Source: Cytobacillus massiliigabonensis
Lineage (GTDB): Bacteria; Bacillota; Bacilli; Bacillales; Cytobacillaceae
NCBI RefSeq assembly: GCF_900199725.1
Contig: NZ_LT904903.1
Location: 180,322-244,321 of the forward strand
Direction: 5' to 3'
DNA: 64,000 nt
The notes under the pieces were generated by a model. It was not told where the DNA came from and did not search any database. It was given only the letters and a program-made list of their open reading frames with translations. The translations under genes were made by a program, and so were the position numbers. Of this stretch, positions 9,714-14,985 are shown piece after piece; the first letter of the stretch is position 1, and the number at the start of each line of letters is the position of its first letter.

Positions 9714-10577
9714 ATGAAACGACTGTTATTAATGCTGTTCGTACTATGCATGATGTTTAGTACAACAGTTGCAGCAGAGGAAGATTATAATTGGATTGAG
9801 GGAGGCCAAACAGTTGATCTTGGTGGCATTGCGACCGTTGATCTTGATCCGGACTTTGTCTTTCTTGACGCAGAAAATACAAAGAAAATGAGTATGGATT
9901 ATGGTGACCCAGTTACAGGTCTTGAAGTGGGCAGTATCTTTCCAACGGATGAGAATGCAACCTGGGCAGTCTTTTTTGACTATGAAGAGACCGGTCACAT
10001 TAAAGATGCTGAAAAAGAGAAAATTGATGCAAAGGCATTACTAAAGAGCTATAAGGAAGGTACCGAAGAAGCAAACAAAGAGCGCCAGCCAGGTGACCGT
10101 TTCCATGTAACGGGATGGGATATTAAACCTTTCTACGAGAAAAAAACGCATAACCTGACTTGGTCTATGCTGCTTGAAGATGAAAACAAAGAAACATTTT
10201 TAAACTATAATACAAGAATCCTCACAAGAGAGGGAAACATTTCTGTTATTCTTGTAACTGATCCACAAAACAGAGAAGCGGATAAAAAGCTCCTAGACGA
10301 AAAAATCCTTTCAAAGTTCAAGGTAAATGAAGGAAAAAGATATGAAGACTTTGATAAGTCTACTGATAAAGTTGCAGATTACGGTTTAACTGGACTTATT
10401 CTAGGTGGTGCTGGTCTAGCTGTAGCTAAAAAGGCGGGCATTCTTGCGGTTGTTCTTGCATTTGGGAAAAAATTTGGCGTGATTGCAGTAGCGGGTATTG
10501 TAGCTTTATTTGGATTCCTTAGGAAAAAGAAAAGAAATAATCAATCAACTAATTCAGATGATTCCTTAAATCAATAA
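9714..10577 (+). CDS. DUF2167 membrane-anchored protein
   Basis: A 287-residue exported protein. A signal sequence (1-21, ending TVAAEE) leads into a soluble extracytoplasmic domain (22-220) with the DUF2167 pattern (VDLGGIATVDLDPDFVFLD, GSIFP, WAVFFDYEETGHIKD, LTWSMLLED, LNYNTRILTREG). Two glycine/alanine-rich hydrophobic stretches (about 225-265) and a basic cytoplasmic tail (RKKKRNN) follow. AGGAGGAAAA lies 10 bases before the ATG. The family has no settled function. It is monocistronic with its own terminator. Confidence 0.88.
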   Translation: MKRLLLMLFVLCMMFSTTVAAEEDYNWIEGGQTVDLGGIATVDLDPDFVFLDAENTKKMSMDYGDPVTGLEVGSIFPTDENATWAVFFDYEETGHIKDAEKEKIDAKALLKSYKEGTEEANKERQPGDRFHVTGWDIKPFYEKKTHNLTWSMLLEDENKETFLNYNTRILTREGNISVILVTDPQNREADKKLLDEKILSKFKVNEGKRYEDFDKSTDKVADYGLTGLILGGAGLAVAKKAGILAVVLAFGKKFGVIAVAGIVALFGFLRKKKRNNQSTNSDDSLNQ

Positions 10578-10853: not shown

Positions 10854-11138
10854 CTCCTTGCCTAATAAATTGAGAATGCATGTATGCTATATATCCATTG
10901 CTGAAGCACTTGGGCAACCTTTTCATTTGAGCTGCTTAAATTTTATTTTCAAAAAATATTATAACGTTATTAACCTTATAAAAGAATGGATGATATGTGA
11001 ACAATGGGATTCATTTTTTATTATTAAAAAAGCAGTATTTCCTGGAGAGTGAAAAATTTGAAATAATTCCCGGAAAAATATCATAAGAATGATTGTATGT
11101 GCAAAAAATTTGGAGGGAGAATTATTATTGTCTGACTG
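10854..11138. other. AT-rich intergenic stretch upstream of the bmrCD leader
   Basis: Nothing with coding support was found. A weak frame (10846-11052) overlaps the small membrane gene and lacks a ribosome site. The region ends at the candidate leader promoter at 11139. Confidence 0.4.
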
Positions 11139-11168
11139 TTGACAATTATTAGATAAAAATGGTAATCT
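11139..11168 (+). promoter_or_regulatory. Candidate promoter of the bmrCD leader
   Basis: A perfect -35 (TTGACA, 11139-11144) is followed at 18 bp by a poor -10 (TAATCT, 11163-11168). It would start a transcript about 35 bases before the leader ORF. Confidence 0.45.
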
Positions 11169-11197
11169 TCAAGAACACTAAAAAATTTTTTACTAAG

Positions 11198-11369
11198 GAG
11201 GTATGGACAATGCGAGATCTAAGAATACACTTCATTGATATTAATTTCATACATTGTCCATGCCTCTTCTCTAGTATAATTGTGAATTCCTTTATACGAT
11301 AAAAGGTATAGGTACGACTCCTATGCCTTTTCTAGAGATGCATGCTCTTTCTAGGGTATGCATCTTTTT
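11198..11369 (+). promoter_or_regulatory. Structured bmrCD leader: attenuator with three hairpins
   Basis: Three inverted repeats follow one another. Hairpin 1 pairs 11198-11213 with 11251-11266 (15 of 16 bases) and covers the ribosome site and start of the leader ORF. Hairpin 2 pairs AAAAGGTATAGG (11301-11312) with CCTATGCCTTTT (11320-11331). Hairpin 3 pairs AGATGCAT (11336-11343) with ATGCATCT (11358-11365) and ends in T5, so it is a terminator. TCTCTAG (11268-11274) can instead pair with CTAGAGA (11332-11338), which would break the terminator arm. In B. subtilis, bmrCD is known to be controlled by ribosome-mediated attenuation through the leader bmrB; this region looks like the equivalent. 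Confidence 0.7.
11210..11302 (+). CDS. Leader peptide of bmrCD (30 aa)
   Basis: A 30-codon frame with an excellent ribosome site (AAGGAGG, eight bases before ATG). The peptide starts MRDLRIHFID, contains HCPC and ends NSFIR. Its stop overlaps the first bases of hairpin 2, and its coding part forms the 3' arm of hairpin 1, so ribosome position would decide which hairpins form. It is placed like BmrB of B. subtilis, although I cannot align the two. Ribosomes slowed by antibiotics would be the sensed signal (inference from the known system). Confidence 0.65.
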   Translation: MRDLRIHFIDINFIHCPCLFSSIIVNSFIR

Positions 11370-11414
11370 GTTGATGGAGTTTTTTAGTGGAAAAATTATA
11401 AGGAGTCGAGGACG

Positions 11415-11471
11415 ATGTGGAGCAGATTAAGATTATTGATTTTTAATGGTGAGTTGCTGGATAGTGGGTAG
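11415..11471 (+). CDS. Possible second leader ORF (18 aa)
   Basis: AAGGAG stands nine bases before an ATG that opens an 18-codon frame (MWSRLRLLIF...). It lies between the attenuator terminator and bmrC, ending 38 bp before the bmrC start. It may couple translation into the operon or may be chance. Confidence 0.4.
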   Translation: MWSRLRLLIFNGELLDSG

Positions 11472-11509
11472 CGATTGTACAAAGCTTGAGGGGAAAGAGG
11501 GAATGATAC

Positions 11510-13252
11510 ATGTTTGATGTTTTAGGGAAGCTAGGCTGGTTTTTTAAACAGTATTGGAAGCAGTATACGATTGCGATTATTCTATTAATGATAGCCACCC
11601 TGTTAGAAGTCGTCCCACCATACTTACTTGGTTCTATTATCGACATCATAGCAGCTGGTGATATGACAAAAGCGGTATTAGTCCAATATATACTGATTTT
11701 CGCTGCTATTATTGTCTTTGGCTATTTCTTGAATTTCTTCTGGCAATACCGTTTATTTGAAGGGGCGCTTAATCTTGAAAAATTAATGCGCCGTAAGTTA
11801 ATGCTGCAATTTTTAAAAATGACGCCGACCTTTTACGAAAAAAATCGGACGGGTGACTTAATGGCTCGTGCAACGAATGATTTGAATGCTGTTTCTTTAA
11901 CAGCGGGCTTTGGAATCATGACATTAATGGACTCTACGTTATTTTTAGGTTCGATTATATTTGCCATGGGCTTTATGATTTCATGGAAATTAACGTTCTT
12001 TGCGATGCTGCCTGTACCGATCATGGCCGTTTTAATTCAGTATTTAGGGAAGCTTGTACATGAAAGATATATGAAGGCACAGGATGCATTTGGTGAACTG
12101 AATGATAATGTTTTAGAGTCAATTGCAGGTGTGCGCGTGATTCGTGCCTATGTACAAGAAAGTAAAGATGAAAAGAACTTTGCAGATATGAGTGAGGAAG
12201 TATATAAGAAAAATATGCATACAGCAAAAATTAATGCGTTATTTGGACCGATAACTAAAATTGGAACAGGGATTAGCTTTGTTGTTGCACTTGGTTACGG
12301 TGCATTTCTTGTGTCAAATGGGGAAATGACTGTTGGCCAGCTCGTAACGTTTAATGTCTATTTAGGGCTTGCTGTATGGCCAATCTTTGCTATTGGTGAG
12401 TTGATTAATGTTATGCAGCAGGGGAATGCTTCTTTAGACCGTGTTCAGGAAACGCTTAACTATAAAGCAGATGTACAAAACACGGATGATCCTGTAGTAA
12501 TGAAGTCACCAAGTACGATTGGCTTTGATGACCTGATGTTTCAATACCCAACGAGCCAGGTGAAAAATTTACAGCAAATCTCCTTATCACTGAAGAAGGG
12601 GGAAACGCTTGGGATTGTCGGAAAAACGGGTGCAGGAAAAACAACCTTTCTAAGACAGCTGCTGCGTGAGTATCCGATTGATGAAGGGCAATTAAATATT
12701 GGCGGTATCGATATAGCCTCACAAACAAAGGAGCAGATTCTTGATTGGATAGGTTATGTTCCACAGGATCATGTGCTGTTCTCGCGGACAATACGAGAAA
12801 ATATTTTATTCGGGAAAGAGGATGCGACAGAGGATGATTTAGAGAAAGCTATTCGCCTTGCCTATTTTGAGAAGGATTTGGGAAATTTACCGATGGGGCT
12901 TGAAACCCTTGTTGGGGAAAAAGGCGTTTCTTTATCAGGGGGACAAAAGCAGCGGGTATCAATTGCTCGTGCACTTATCAAAGATCCAGAAATATTAATC
13001 CTAGATGATTCTTTATCAGCAGTTGACGCAAAGACGGAAACGAGGATTATTCAAAACATCCAGAATGAACGAAGCGGGAAGACGACAATCATAACGACTC
13101 ATCGTTTATCTGGTGTACAGCATGCAGATCAGATTATCGTATTAGATGAAGGGCAAATTACAGAGCATGGAACGCATGAAGAGCTGCTCAGACAAAATGG
13201 CTGGTATAAGGAACAATTTGACCGTCAACAGCTAGAAGGAGGCGCGTCATGA
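11510..13252 (+). CDS. bmrC: Multidrug ABC exporter half-transporter, BmrC type
   Basis: A 580-residue half-transporter with an N-terminal six-helix domain (about 15-310) and a C-terminal ATPase (about 335-575). Walker A is GKTGAGKTT, the signature LSGGQ is normal, and the residue after Walker B is Asp instead of the catalytic Glu (LILDDSLSAVD). That makes its ATP site the degenerate one of a heterodimer. The next gene begins in the ATGA overlap at 13249-13252, so the two are co-translated. Length, order and the asymmetric sites match B. subtilis BmrC (YheI). It pumps structurally varied drugs out of the cell with BmrD. Confidence 0.92.
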   Translation: MFDVLGKLGWFFKQYWKQYTIAIILLMIATLLEVVPPYLLGSIIDIIAAGDMTKAVLVQYILIFAAIIVFGYFLNFFWQYRLFEGALNLEKLMRRKLMLQFLKMTPTFYEKNRTGDLMARATNDLNAVSLTAGFGIMTLMDSTLFLGSIIFAMGFMISWKLTFFAMLPVPIMAVLIQYLGKLVHERYMKAQDAFGELNDNVLESIAGVRVIRAYVQESKDEKNFADMSEEVYKKNMHTAKINALFGPITKIGTGISFVVALGYGAFLVSNGEMTVGQLVTFNVYLGLAVWPIFAIGELINVMQQGNASLDRVQETLNYKADVQNTDDPVVMKSPSTIGFDDLMFQYPTSQVKNLQQISLSLKKGETLGIVGKTGAGKTTFLRQLLREYPIDEGQLNIGGIDIASQTKEQILDWIGYVPQDHVLFSRTIRENILFGKEDATEDDLEKAIRLAYFEKDLGNLPMGLETLVGEKGVSLSGGQKQRVSIARALIKDPEILILDDSLSAVDAKTETRIIQNIQNERSGKTTIITTHRLSGVQHADQIIVLDEGQITEHGTHEELLRQNGWYKEQFDRQQLEGGAS

Positions 13253-14985
13253 GCACAAGTAAACGATTAATGAAGTATGCCATGTACTATAAGGGACCTA
13301 TTTTTCTCGGGTTATTTTTCTTAACGGCTGCGGTATTTACCGAGCTTGCAGGTCCATTTATAGCAAAATATATTATTGATGAACATATGACCATTGGGAA
13401 AATTGAAATGGAACCGATAGCCTGGCTGCTTTGTTTATATTTGATCTTAGCGATAGCAACAGCGATTTTGCGTTATTTTATGTATATATATTTGCAAATG
13501 GGTGCGAATCGGGTCGTGCAAAAGCTGCGTAAGGATGTATTTGGGCATATTCAAACATTGCCTATTCAATATTTCGACCACTTGCCAGCAGGGAAAATTG
13601 TTGCACGAGTCACAAATGATACAGAAGCAGTAAGGAATTTATATGTGCAAGTGCTTTCAAATTTCGCGACAAGCTTCATTTCTATTGCTGGAGTGTATAT
13701 TGCGCTGTTTATTTTAAATTGGAAAATGGCACTGATTGCCTTGACCATGATCCCGATTGTTTATCTCTGGATGATATTATACCGAAAATATGCATCACAA
13801 TATAATGAAGTAATTCGTACAAAAATTGCCGATATTAATGCAATGATTAATGAGTCTATTCAAGGAATGACAATCATTCAAGCCTTTCGCCGTGAAAAGC
13901 AAATGACGAATGAATTCGATGAGATGAATGAGGAACATTATGCTTATGGGAGAAAACTATTGTTCTTGGATTCGGCCACCTCATTTAATCTTGTAAATAC
14001 ATTGCGGCTTATTATGTTTACAATATTTATTATCTATTTTGGGACGCAGTCGCTAACAGCTGTTGAGGTGGTATCTGCAGGGACACTTTATGCATTTGTT
14101 GATTATTTAACAAAGTTATTTAATCCAATTACGAATGTCGTTAATCAGTTTTCGCAGCTTGAACGCTCACTTGTAGCTGGGAAGCGTGTGTTTGAGGTGT
14201 TAGATATAACCGGGGAGAATGTTTCACAAGAAACAATGCCAAGATACGCGGGAAATGTTGTATTTGAGGATGTTTCATTTGCCTATAAAGATGACGAATA
14301 TGTTTTGAAGCATTTATCCTTTGAAGCAAAGCGCGGAGAAACAGTTGCACTTGTTGGCCATACAGGGTCAGGAAAAAGTTCGATTATGAATTTGTTATTT
14401 CGTTTCTATGATCCATCGAAAGGGAAAATATATATTGATGGTATAGATGTAACGGCTTTGCCAAGACAAACGATACGACAGCATATGGGTATTGTTTTGC
14501 AGGATCCGTATTTATTTACAGGTACGATTGCATCAAATGTAAGTTTGAATGATCCGAGGATAACAAGAGACACGGTAGAAGAAGCGCTGAAGGCAGTAGG
14601 TGCGGAACGAGTACTTGGTCATCTTGAAAAAGGCATTGACGAACCTGTTATTGAAAAAGGCAGCACGTTATCTTCCGGTCAGCGACAGCTTATATCATTT
14701 GCACGAGCACTTGCCTTTGACCCTGCGATTTTAATATTGGATGAAGCGACATCGAATATTGACACGGAGACAGAAGAAATTATCCAGCATGCGATGGATG
14801 TGTTAAAGAAAGGCCGTACAACATTTATCATTGCACACCGCCTCTCAACCATCAAAAATGCTGATCGCATTCTCGTATTAGACCGCGGGATCATTAAAGA
14901 ACGAGGCACCCATGACGAACTGCTCGCCGAAGGCGGCATCTATAATCAAATGTACCAAATGCAAGCGAAATCACTTCAGGTTTAG
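13249..14985 (+). CDS. bmrD: Multidrug ABC exporter half-transporter, BmrD type
   Basis: A 578-residue partner of BmrC: six-helix domain (about 15-310), then an ATPase with Walker A GHTGSGKSS, Walker B ending LILDEATSNID with the catalytic Glu present, and a changed signature LSSGQ. The normal Walker motifs here pair with the LSGGQ of BmrC to make the active site, while the LSSGQ signature faces the BmrC degenerate site. This is the expected asymmetry of BmrCD-type exporters. The start codon overlaps the bmrC stop by four bases, and a GGGACA-type terminator follows. Confidence 0.92.
   Translation: MSTSKRLMKYAMYYKGPIFLGLFFLTAAVFTELAGPFIAKYIIDEHMTIGKIEMEPIAWLLCLYLILAIATAILRYFMYIYLQMGANRVVQKLRKDVFGHIQTLPIQYFDHLPAGKIVARVTNDTEAVRNLYVQVLSNFATSFISIAGVYIALFILNWKMALIALTMIPIVYLWMILYRKYASQYNEVIRTKIADINAMINESIQGMTIIQAFRREKQMTNEFDEMNEEHYAYGRKLLFLDSATSFNLVNTLRLIMFTIFIIYFGTQSLTAVEVVSAGTLYAFVDYLTKLFNPITNVVNQFSQLERSLVAGKRVFEVLDITGENVSQETMPRYAGNVVFEDVSFAYKDDEYVLKHLSFEAKRGETVALVGHTGSGKSSIMNLLFRFYDPSKGKIYIDGIDVTALPRQTIRQHMGIVLQDPYLFTGTIASNVSLNDPRITRDTVEEALKAVGAERVLGHLEKGIDEPVIEKGSTLSSGQRQLISFARALAFDPAILILDEATSNIDTETEEIIQHAMDVLKKGRTTFIIAHRLSTIKNADRILVLDRGIIKERGTHDELLAEGGIYNQMYQMQAKSLQV

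Follow-up and report, generated by a model that had tools for sequence, protein, structure and literature searches.

Is the synthesis of the BmrC–BmrD-type exporter of Cytobacillus massiliigabonensis set by a ribosome translating a short ORF ahead of the genes and, if so, what does that ribosome report? The question is posed by a 64,000-nucleotide stretch of contig NZ_LT904903.1 (the window, to which all coordinates refer), where the original prediction had placed an attenuator with a 30-codon leader ORF at 11139–11369, before bmrCD. The position is borne out by the gene products. The best match in the Protein Data Bank is YheI/BmrC for the product of the first gene (11510–13252, + strand; 777 bits) and YheH/BmrD for that of the second (13249–14985, + strand; 707 bits), whereas the next-best solved structures of other molecules score 470 and 486 bits, respectively. 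Judged by these sequence matches, the pair are orthologues of Bacillus subtilis yheI and yheH, and the leader stands directly 5′ of them, as is expected of a bmrB-type leader. The window BmrC shares 97% identity with the Cytobacillus praedii protein. The same genome contains another ABC exporter gene that is SmdA-like (G000 contig C6, 19310–21055; L139); an SmdA model scores its product at 736 bits and bmrC at 553 bits. We set this exporter aside as the true BmrC, on the window protein alone, because the latter matches YheI far above any other solved structure. Farther upstream, at 9714–10577, lies a 287-residue ORF whose product, by reading, has a signal-like N-terminus and a hydrophobic C-terminal stretch; no NCBIfam model matched it at an E value of 0.001.

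The elements of the leader, all on the + strand, are as follows. The promoter (11139–11168), similar in relatives, comprises a −35 box TTGACA (11139–11144) and a −10 box TAATCT (11163–11168) with an 18-nt spacer and a TG at 11160–11161; from this spacing, transcription is predicted to start at ~11175. A Shine–Dalgarno (SD) sequence, AAGGAGGT (11195–11202), which is kept in relatives, precedes leader ORF 1 (11210–11302; ATG 11210–11212, TAA ending at 11302), whose 30 codons specify MRDLRIHFIDINFIHCPCLFSSIIVNSFIR. The SD and start codon form one arm (11198–11212) of a hairpin, HP1 (11198–11266), the other arm being their antisense within the leader codons (11252–11266). These features can be read directly in the sequence, the leader ORF and the hairpin over its start among them as first described. 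The second hairpin of the original prediction, here T1 (11301–11331; 11301–11312 pairing with 11320–11331), is terminator-like with CCUUUU on its 3′ side, and is followed by T2 (11334–11372), a strong intrinsic-terminator hairpin (11334–11347 pairing with 11354–11367) with a U-run. Two further elements lie partly or wholly beyond the region first described and were absent from that account. One is a helix, P1, joining the predicted 5′ end of the transcript (11176–11184) to bases just 3′ of T2 (11381–11389). The other is a second ORF, ORF2 (11415–11471), of 18 codons (MWSRLRLLIFNGELLDSG-TAG) with the SD sequence AAGGAG at 11400–11405; its stop codon is 38 nt 5′ of the bmrC ATG.

Two observations concern the promoter region. 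An imperfect inverted repeat, TATTATTGTC (11123–11132) and GACAATTATT (11141–11150), overlaps the −35 box and is a possible operator; TTGTC...GACAA is also seen in loci L003, L010, L012 and L016. In L212, from a genome of the same genus (G029 C1 274900–277400), the leader SD is about 1.8 kb away from the conserved promoter, the two being split by an ORF at 261–1538, which we take from its sequence to encode an IS110-type transposase.

The RNA spanning 11120–11375 is predicted to fold with a minimum free energy of −78.2 kcal/mol, compared with a mean of −47.0 kcal/mol (s.d. 5.0) for dinucleotide shuffles (z = −6.25), none of 200 of which is as stable. The leader DNA itself found matches in 16 of 61 genomes, that of the window included; three of these (in G004, G039 and G058) are shorter than 30 nt with E values above 0.002 and are probably due to chance, leaving 13 genomes. 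Covariation, the check proposed with the original prediction, was analysed in an alignment of 36 leaders, namely that of the window and the 35 alignable ones from the best 80 of 153 bmrC relatives. The four-helix structure made up of P1, HP1, T1 and T2 is paired in 85.8% of cells, with changes on both sides in 24 of its 50 pairs, and its covariation score of 0.271 is reached by none of 500 shuffles (0.163 in shuffles); versions slid out of register score 0.077–0.102 with 40–51% of cells paired. By helix, P1 is paired in 87.8% of cells (both-side changes in five of nine pairs), HP1 in 79.3% (5 of 15), T1 in 79.8% (6 of 12) and T2, the best kept, in 96.4% (8 of 14). In Lysinibacillus, P1 is formed by CACUAUAAC with GUUGUAGUG. 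When arms were swapped among the 36 leaders, the pairing of the native arms equalled or exceeded that of the median swapped partner in 34 leaders for HP1 and in 33 for T1. The hairpin and T-tailed terminator first proposed from the letters are thus present and both covary, and fold and covariation together predict two intrinsic terminators, T1 and T2, between the promoter and bmrC, as in a bmrB-type leader.

The structure was not identified as a known RNA family. No Rfam model reached its gathering score in the window or in five B. subtilis-group loci, and a permissive scan of 11100–11520 gave six weak matches, every one under its gathering score (ncr1241 at 11300–11371, 21.2 bits against a gathering score of 60). 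T2 is kept in sequence as well as in pairing in leaders of the Cytobacillus/Neobacillus type, its loop and wobble pairs included, a degree of conservation that seems to exceed the needs of a plain terminator. In the Sutcliffiella loci L070 and L074, the first strong terminator-like hairpin has in its 5′ arm ACAGGUCAC, the complement of the leader codons GUGACCUGU, and a second such hairpin follows; by reading, the plan is alike and the sequence different. Leader 1 lies ~115 nt farther from bmrC in L007 and L008 than in the other leaders, with the leader and ORF2 intact; the extra sequence, placed after T2, reads as rich in inverted repeats and resembles a small repeat element.

To see how far the occlusion of the leader start extends, we turned to the regions upstream of bmrCD relatives. 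The set of 175 regions (from which L001, L094–L098 and L139–L144 were left out) was reduced to 155 loci by dropping those identical in the last 330 nt; L134, L154, L161 and L162 were dropped for want of a gene start. These 155 loci remain related to one another; 148 of them contain a leader candidate led by an SD. In 121 loci, no more than 5 of 100 shuffles pair with the SD and start codon as well as the native sequence does (p ≤ 0.05), single p values that are optimistic since the best-pairing candidate was picked at each locus and the shuffles preserve only mononucleotide composition. Permutation of the arms of these same chosen candidates among 98 representatives gave a mean of −11.10 kcal/mol (s.d. 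0.28) against −16.71 kcal/mol for the native arms, a value reached in none of 2000 permutations. On average, 0.74 of the bases of the SD core and 0.67 of those of the start codon are paired in the representatives, with at least one start-codon base paired in 78 of the 98. By these comparisons, a leader that hides its own start is widespread among bmrCD leaders. At 10 of the 148 loci, which count against the model proposed below, the SD/AUG arm pairs best with a segment more than 90 nt away from the AUG.

The known relative of this leader is bmrB of B. subtilis, described by Reilman et al. 2014 (PMC4191407). There, a translated leader lies 5′ of an intrinsic terminator in the orthologous operon, anti-antiterminator, antiterminator and terminator structures have been proposed, and the read-through induced by lincomycin requires translation of the leader; lincomycin, erythromycin and chloramphenicol are reported as inducers, and kanamycin and gentamycin as non-inducers (PMC4191407). 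The annotated bmrB differs in layout, being a 53-codon ORF with a GTG start whose coding region contains the terminator (PMC4191407). This layout is not shared by the window, where the 30-codon AUG leader ends at 11302, at the base of T1 and before the T1 loop and T2, its own SD and AUG form the first hairpin, and two terminator hairpins are followed by ORF2. The original statement that peptide and RNA look different from those of B. subtilis is correct for the annotated ORF. It does not extend to the B. subtilis-type genome itself, which has an AUG leader of the same kind. At that locus, L165, BmrC matches the YheI sequence with 100% identity and a GTG-start frame of 53 residues fits the printed description of bmrB (GTG start, 53 residues; PMC4191407). 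An AUG ORF of 23 residues, MPRNLRVYQTVSYWRGKPFVLFS, with the SD sequence GGAGGG, starts 16 bases 5′ of this GTG and out of frame with it, and its SD pairs with the ORF's own codons. ORF2 is also found there, with 26 codons, a GTG start, a weak SD and the ending KEKIEGG, its stop codon 17 nt before bmrC.

An SD-led AUG ORF occupies the corresponding place in all 17 loci of the genus Bacillus. The annotated bmrB frame (GTG or TTG start, at least 50 codons) is intact in eight of them (L165, L166, L170, L171, L145, L177, L147 and L178) and is short or has no start codon in nine, including L167, L168, L169 and L172, whose BmrC proteins are 94 to 96% identical. Because the AUG ORF is out of frame with bmrB and the annotated frame is lost in nine loci, the B. 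subtilis leader ORF may have been misassigned, the AUG ORF being the true leader; on that reading, the window leader may be typical and the bmrB annotation misleading. Counter-evidence to such a reassignment is that a plasmid-borne in-frame bmrB fusion fluoresced (PMC4191407). The published construct lacking the bmrB start carries four additional changes in the 5′-UTR (PMC4191407), by which the AUG leader may have been lost.

The original prediction included an alternative pairing of TCTCTAG (11268–11274) with CTAGAGA (11332–11338). The two segments are indeed perfect 7-bp complements, and across the 36 leaders their pairing (65.0% of cells, covariation 0.150) exceeds that in shuffles (58.4% and 0.097; 0 of 500 reach either value), but a version slid by two columns does equally well or better (66.1% and 0.173), and one of the seven pairs has its letters only in the window. 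We accordingly rejected this pairing as the antiterminator. A candidate that we consider better, with moderate to low confidence, joins the 3′ arm of HP1 (11258–11266) to the 5′ arm of T1 (11303–11311). It is paired in 79.7% of cells, compared with 22–46% for slid versions; its covariation is within the range of the shuffles (74 of 500), and in the swap test the native arms equal or exceed the median partner in 20 of 36 leaders, about chance, and are no better in 16. A result at chance level can be expected if the antiterminator arises because the T1 5′ arm resembles the SD/AUG arm, and is not positive evidence for it. This register gives a weak pairing in L021 (−7.8) and none in L041 (−1.8). 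A second antiterminator between the 3′ arms of T1 and T2, seen by eye, was judged not to be kept in the Lysinibacillus alignment.

Folding of the growing transcript was modelled with the start region masked or free. With the mask, the candidate antiterminator has a probability of 0.99 in transcripts ending at 11312–11324; without it, HP1 has a probability of 1.00 and T1 forms. At equilibrium, T1 displaces the antiterminator once 11328 has been transcribed, masked or not, so that the antiterminator would have to act kinetically at T1. A ribosome modelled on the antisense arm allows T1 to form, HP1 persists with one at about codon 10, and placing one at the leader stop codon blocks T1 without any drug while T2 still forms. 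T2 has a probability of 1.00 at 11369 in all five modelled states. Among nine start-masked consensus folds, the antiterminator appears in one, that of Lysinibacillus with the full 3′ end, and neither these folds nor the pairing tests revealed a conserved partner for the T2 arms.

The leader is built like a transcription attenuator under ribosome control, as claimed at the outset, and its elements, their conservation and covariation, and the coding signature of ORF2 described below are there in the sequence. From these we hold with high confidence that an attenuator with a self-hiding leader precedes bmrCD. That it is driven by a ribosome with only a brief chance to load on the leader ORF is, in our view, probable. 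The SD and AUG of leader 1 would stay accessible just until the antisense arm, ~40 nt downstream of the AUG, has been transcribed, a timing that we infer; HP1, the structure backed by covariation, would then close and bar further ribosome loading. We propose that HP1 thereby acts both as anti-antiterminator and as the means of self-occlusion. If no ribosome has loaded, HP1 would stand, T1 and T2 would form and transcription would stop. A ribosome passing quickly over the antisense arm would likewise allow T1 to form, and one waiting at the leader stop would, as in the model, block T1 and leave T2 to form. A ribosome held by a drug at the first codons would occupy the SD/AUG arm and free the antisense arm, which could then capture the emerging T1 5′ arm before the T1 3′ arm exists, so favouring read-through into bmrCD. 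Since the stall site would be the start region, the sequence of the peptide would be largely free. The mRNA produced by read-through would close its 5′ end through P1 and carry ORF2. That the switch responds to ribosome-targeting drugs we infer by analogy with the orthologous B. subtilis operon.

The nearest known logic is that of the vmlR and tlrB leaders, in which, as far as the published descriptions go, translation of the leader must start before a hairpin shuts it. In the vmlR leader, a short ORF is present, and it has been proposed that drugs stalling ribosomes at initiation keep an anti-antiterminator from forming and allow an antiterminator instead; the uORF variants MDN, MDK and MRK stay inducible (PMC9226507). 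Its SD is single-stranded before the first stem–loop and its ORF has three codons (PMC9226507), whereas in the window the SD and AUG form one hairpin arm and the ORF has 30 codons, so that the leader is not of the vmlR type in layout; by analogy, it may nevertheless work in the same way. For the tlrB (yxjB) leader, translation must begin before RNA polymerase completes the shutting hairpin, the stall site is an RYR motif and the hairpin conceals the main gene's SD (PMC6851288). In the window, it is the SD and AUG of the leader itself that are hidden, and the bmrC SD lacks excess pairing.

Points against this mechanism are that escape from T2 is not accounted for in the modelled states and that read-through of T1 depends on the order of events during transcription. 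We regard as possible but somewhat doubtful an alternative in which T2 alone is the relevant terminator, T1 is a spacer or an anti-antiterminator, and a pairing or pause that we have not found governs T2. The T1 U-run is short (CCUUUUCUAG), T2 is U-rich as well as the best-kept helix (96.4%), and bmrCD would not be expressed by passing T1 alone; moreover, a single strong terminator follows HP1 in the fold of L165, with weaker hairpins in the intervening RNA. Set against this, the first strong hairpin of L070 and L074 combines a long U-run with 9 nt complementary to leader codons, as would be expected for a regulated terminator, and the tests made here yielded no conserved T2 partner.

The brief-loading mechanism must also be weighed against readings in which something other than the start-bound ribosome is sensed. 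A peptide-specific drug sensor like ErmCL or MsrDL, in which a given nascent peptide together with a drug stalls the ribosome, would account for the start MRDL in several Cytobacillus/Neobacillus leaders and for the recurrence of stretches resembling NFIHCPYL. This stretch is, however, antisense to the SD and start codon of the leader itself, and in Lysinibacillus the same RNA is translated in another frame, as YIVHV; the antisense arm occurs in all three frames (46, 29 and 23 of the 98 representatives, rough figures since the arm ends vary). It seems from the antisense relationship and the frame change that the RNA, and not the peptide, is conserved in leader 1. We set aside stalling on NFIHCPYL on account of the frame change, and no motif common to the genera was noticed on reading the leader peptides by eye; a peptide sensor is on these grounds improbable. 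Very improbable indeed is a ligand-binding riboswitch, in which a multi-hairpin domain closed by P1 would sense a small molecule and leader ORF 1 would be incidental. P1, HP1, T1 and T2 do form one covarying closed domain, but the SD-led candidate at 148 of 155 loci, its significant self-pairing in 121 and the lack of an Rfam match speak against it.

ORF2 is the part of the finding most likely to be new. An ORF ending [DEN][SGDNC]G-stop, the Gly before the stop being required by the search pattern, is present in 133 of the 155 loci. It mostly has 18 codons, is preceded by an SD match of at least 5 nt in 122 of the 133, terminates at TAG (101), TGA (18) or TAA (14), and has its stop codon 16–45 nt 5′ of the bmrC start. 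The narrower ending [DE][SG]G-stop accounts for 124 loci (49 EGG, 31 ESG, 30 DSG and 14 DGG) and occurs in 2 of 1273 other open stretches of at least 12 codons in the same leaders; 77 other start-bearing ORFs that end in the same interval do not fit the ORF2 pattern. The 22 misses include L155 and L156, where the gene start is misplaced and the ORFs end in ESG and NSG, and eight variant endings (L015, YSG; L036, HSG; L081, KGG; L066 and L135, LFG; L117 and L133, NST; L127, DGT). ORF2 was not seen in the other 12 of the 155 loci, L159, L160 and L164 among them. In 59 representatives less than 75% identical, codons −3 and −1 have 1.88–2.00 bits at each of their first two positions, compared with 0.60 and 0.22 bits at the third positions; the search pattern partly fixes the first two positions and not the third. 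From this pattern, the last codons of ORF2 are judged to carry a coding signature.

The motif was also sought before other genes. The pattern SD-ATG-[GAN][RGN][GGN]-TAG matched in 16 of 41 genomes, with 21 rows that represent 18 distinct places, and a backward control pattern gave six matches in the same 41; in the window's genome, each occurs once, the former at ORF2. Ten of 12 places examined are followed by an ORF that is bmrC-like when read from its N-terminus and two (L191 and L209) are not, and we rejected the idea of a general motif before other genes. Five further places (L192, L193, L195, L200 and L204) adjoin leader-DNA matches. Nothing resembling ORF2 was noticed in the 260 nt read by eye upstream of the second exporter gene on contig C6.

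What ORF2 does is suggested by its ending, and we consider that it would most likely act through slow release of the peptide at its stop codon. Reportedly, TnaC is a short ORF in which the nascent chain and termination both matter, and it offers a possible parallel. MsrDL (PMC10314930) is another such case. Compared with these, ORF2 keeps only [DE][SG]G-stop, and arrest at its stop codon is putative. Slow release has been reported where the peptide has a C-terminal Gly or Pro (Pierson et al. 2016, cited in PMC7246954), and ORFs with strong apidaecin stalling at the stop codon are enriched for a C-terminal Gly (PMC7544508). Control of translation through a hairpin over the bmrC SD finds no support, since this SD shows no excess pairing (0.54 unpaired, 0.56 in shuffles). 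ORF2 may instead serve reinitiation or coupling, supplying bmrC with ribosomes, or encode a small peptide acting on the BmrCD pump. In favour of this, its stop lies 16–45 nt from the bmrC start in the 133 loci and 17 nt from it in the B. subtilis-type genome, but coupling alone fails to explain why the last three residues are conserved while the third codon positions are free. In the open-access literature, which does not take in subscription papers or supplements, we found no paper describing a second ORF before bmrC or an AUG leader in B. subtilis, and the main text of the uORF4u paper (PMC10219788) makes no mention of bmrC or bmrB.

Taken in its widest form, the proposal would give bmrCD leaders two sensors, leader 1 and ORF2, with the corollary that bmrB is annotated in the wrong frame; we think this unlikely as a whole, and set it out for what it would imply. 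The self-occluded leader 1 would sample whether a ribosome is held at the first codons and open transcription accordingly. ORF2, present on read-through RNA only, would sample the speed of peptide release through its [DE][SG]G-stop ending, so that drugs or conditions hindering termination could tune the synthesis of the pump or the lifetime of its mRNA. If this is true, the current view of how a well-known drug-response leader of Bacillus works would have to be revised, in that sensing would fall to a short AUG ORF that hides its own start and not to the annotated bmrB, with a peptide that matters little to the switch. Stalling close to the start would fit drugs that catch ribosomes early, while the Gly-stop of ORF2 raises the question of whether termination is monitored when the cell decides on the synthesis of a multidrug exporter. 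Both would provide new handles on how such multidrug pumps are switched on.
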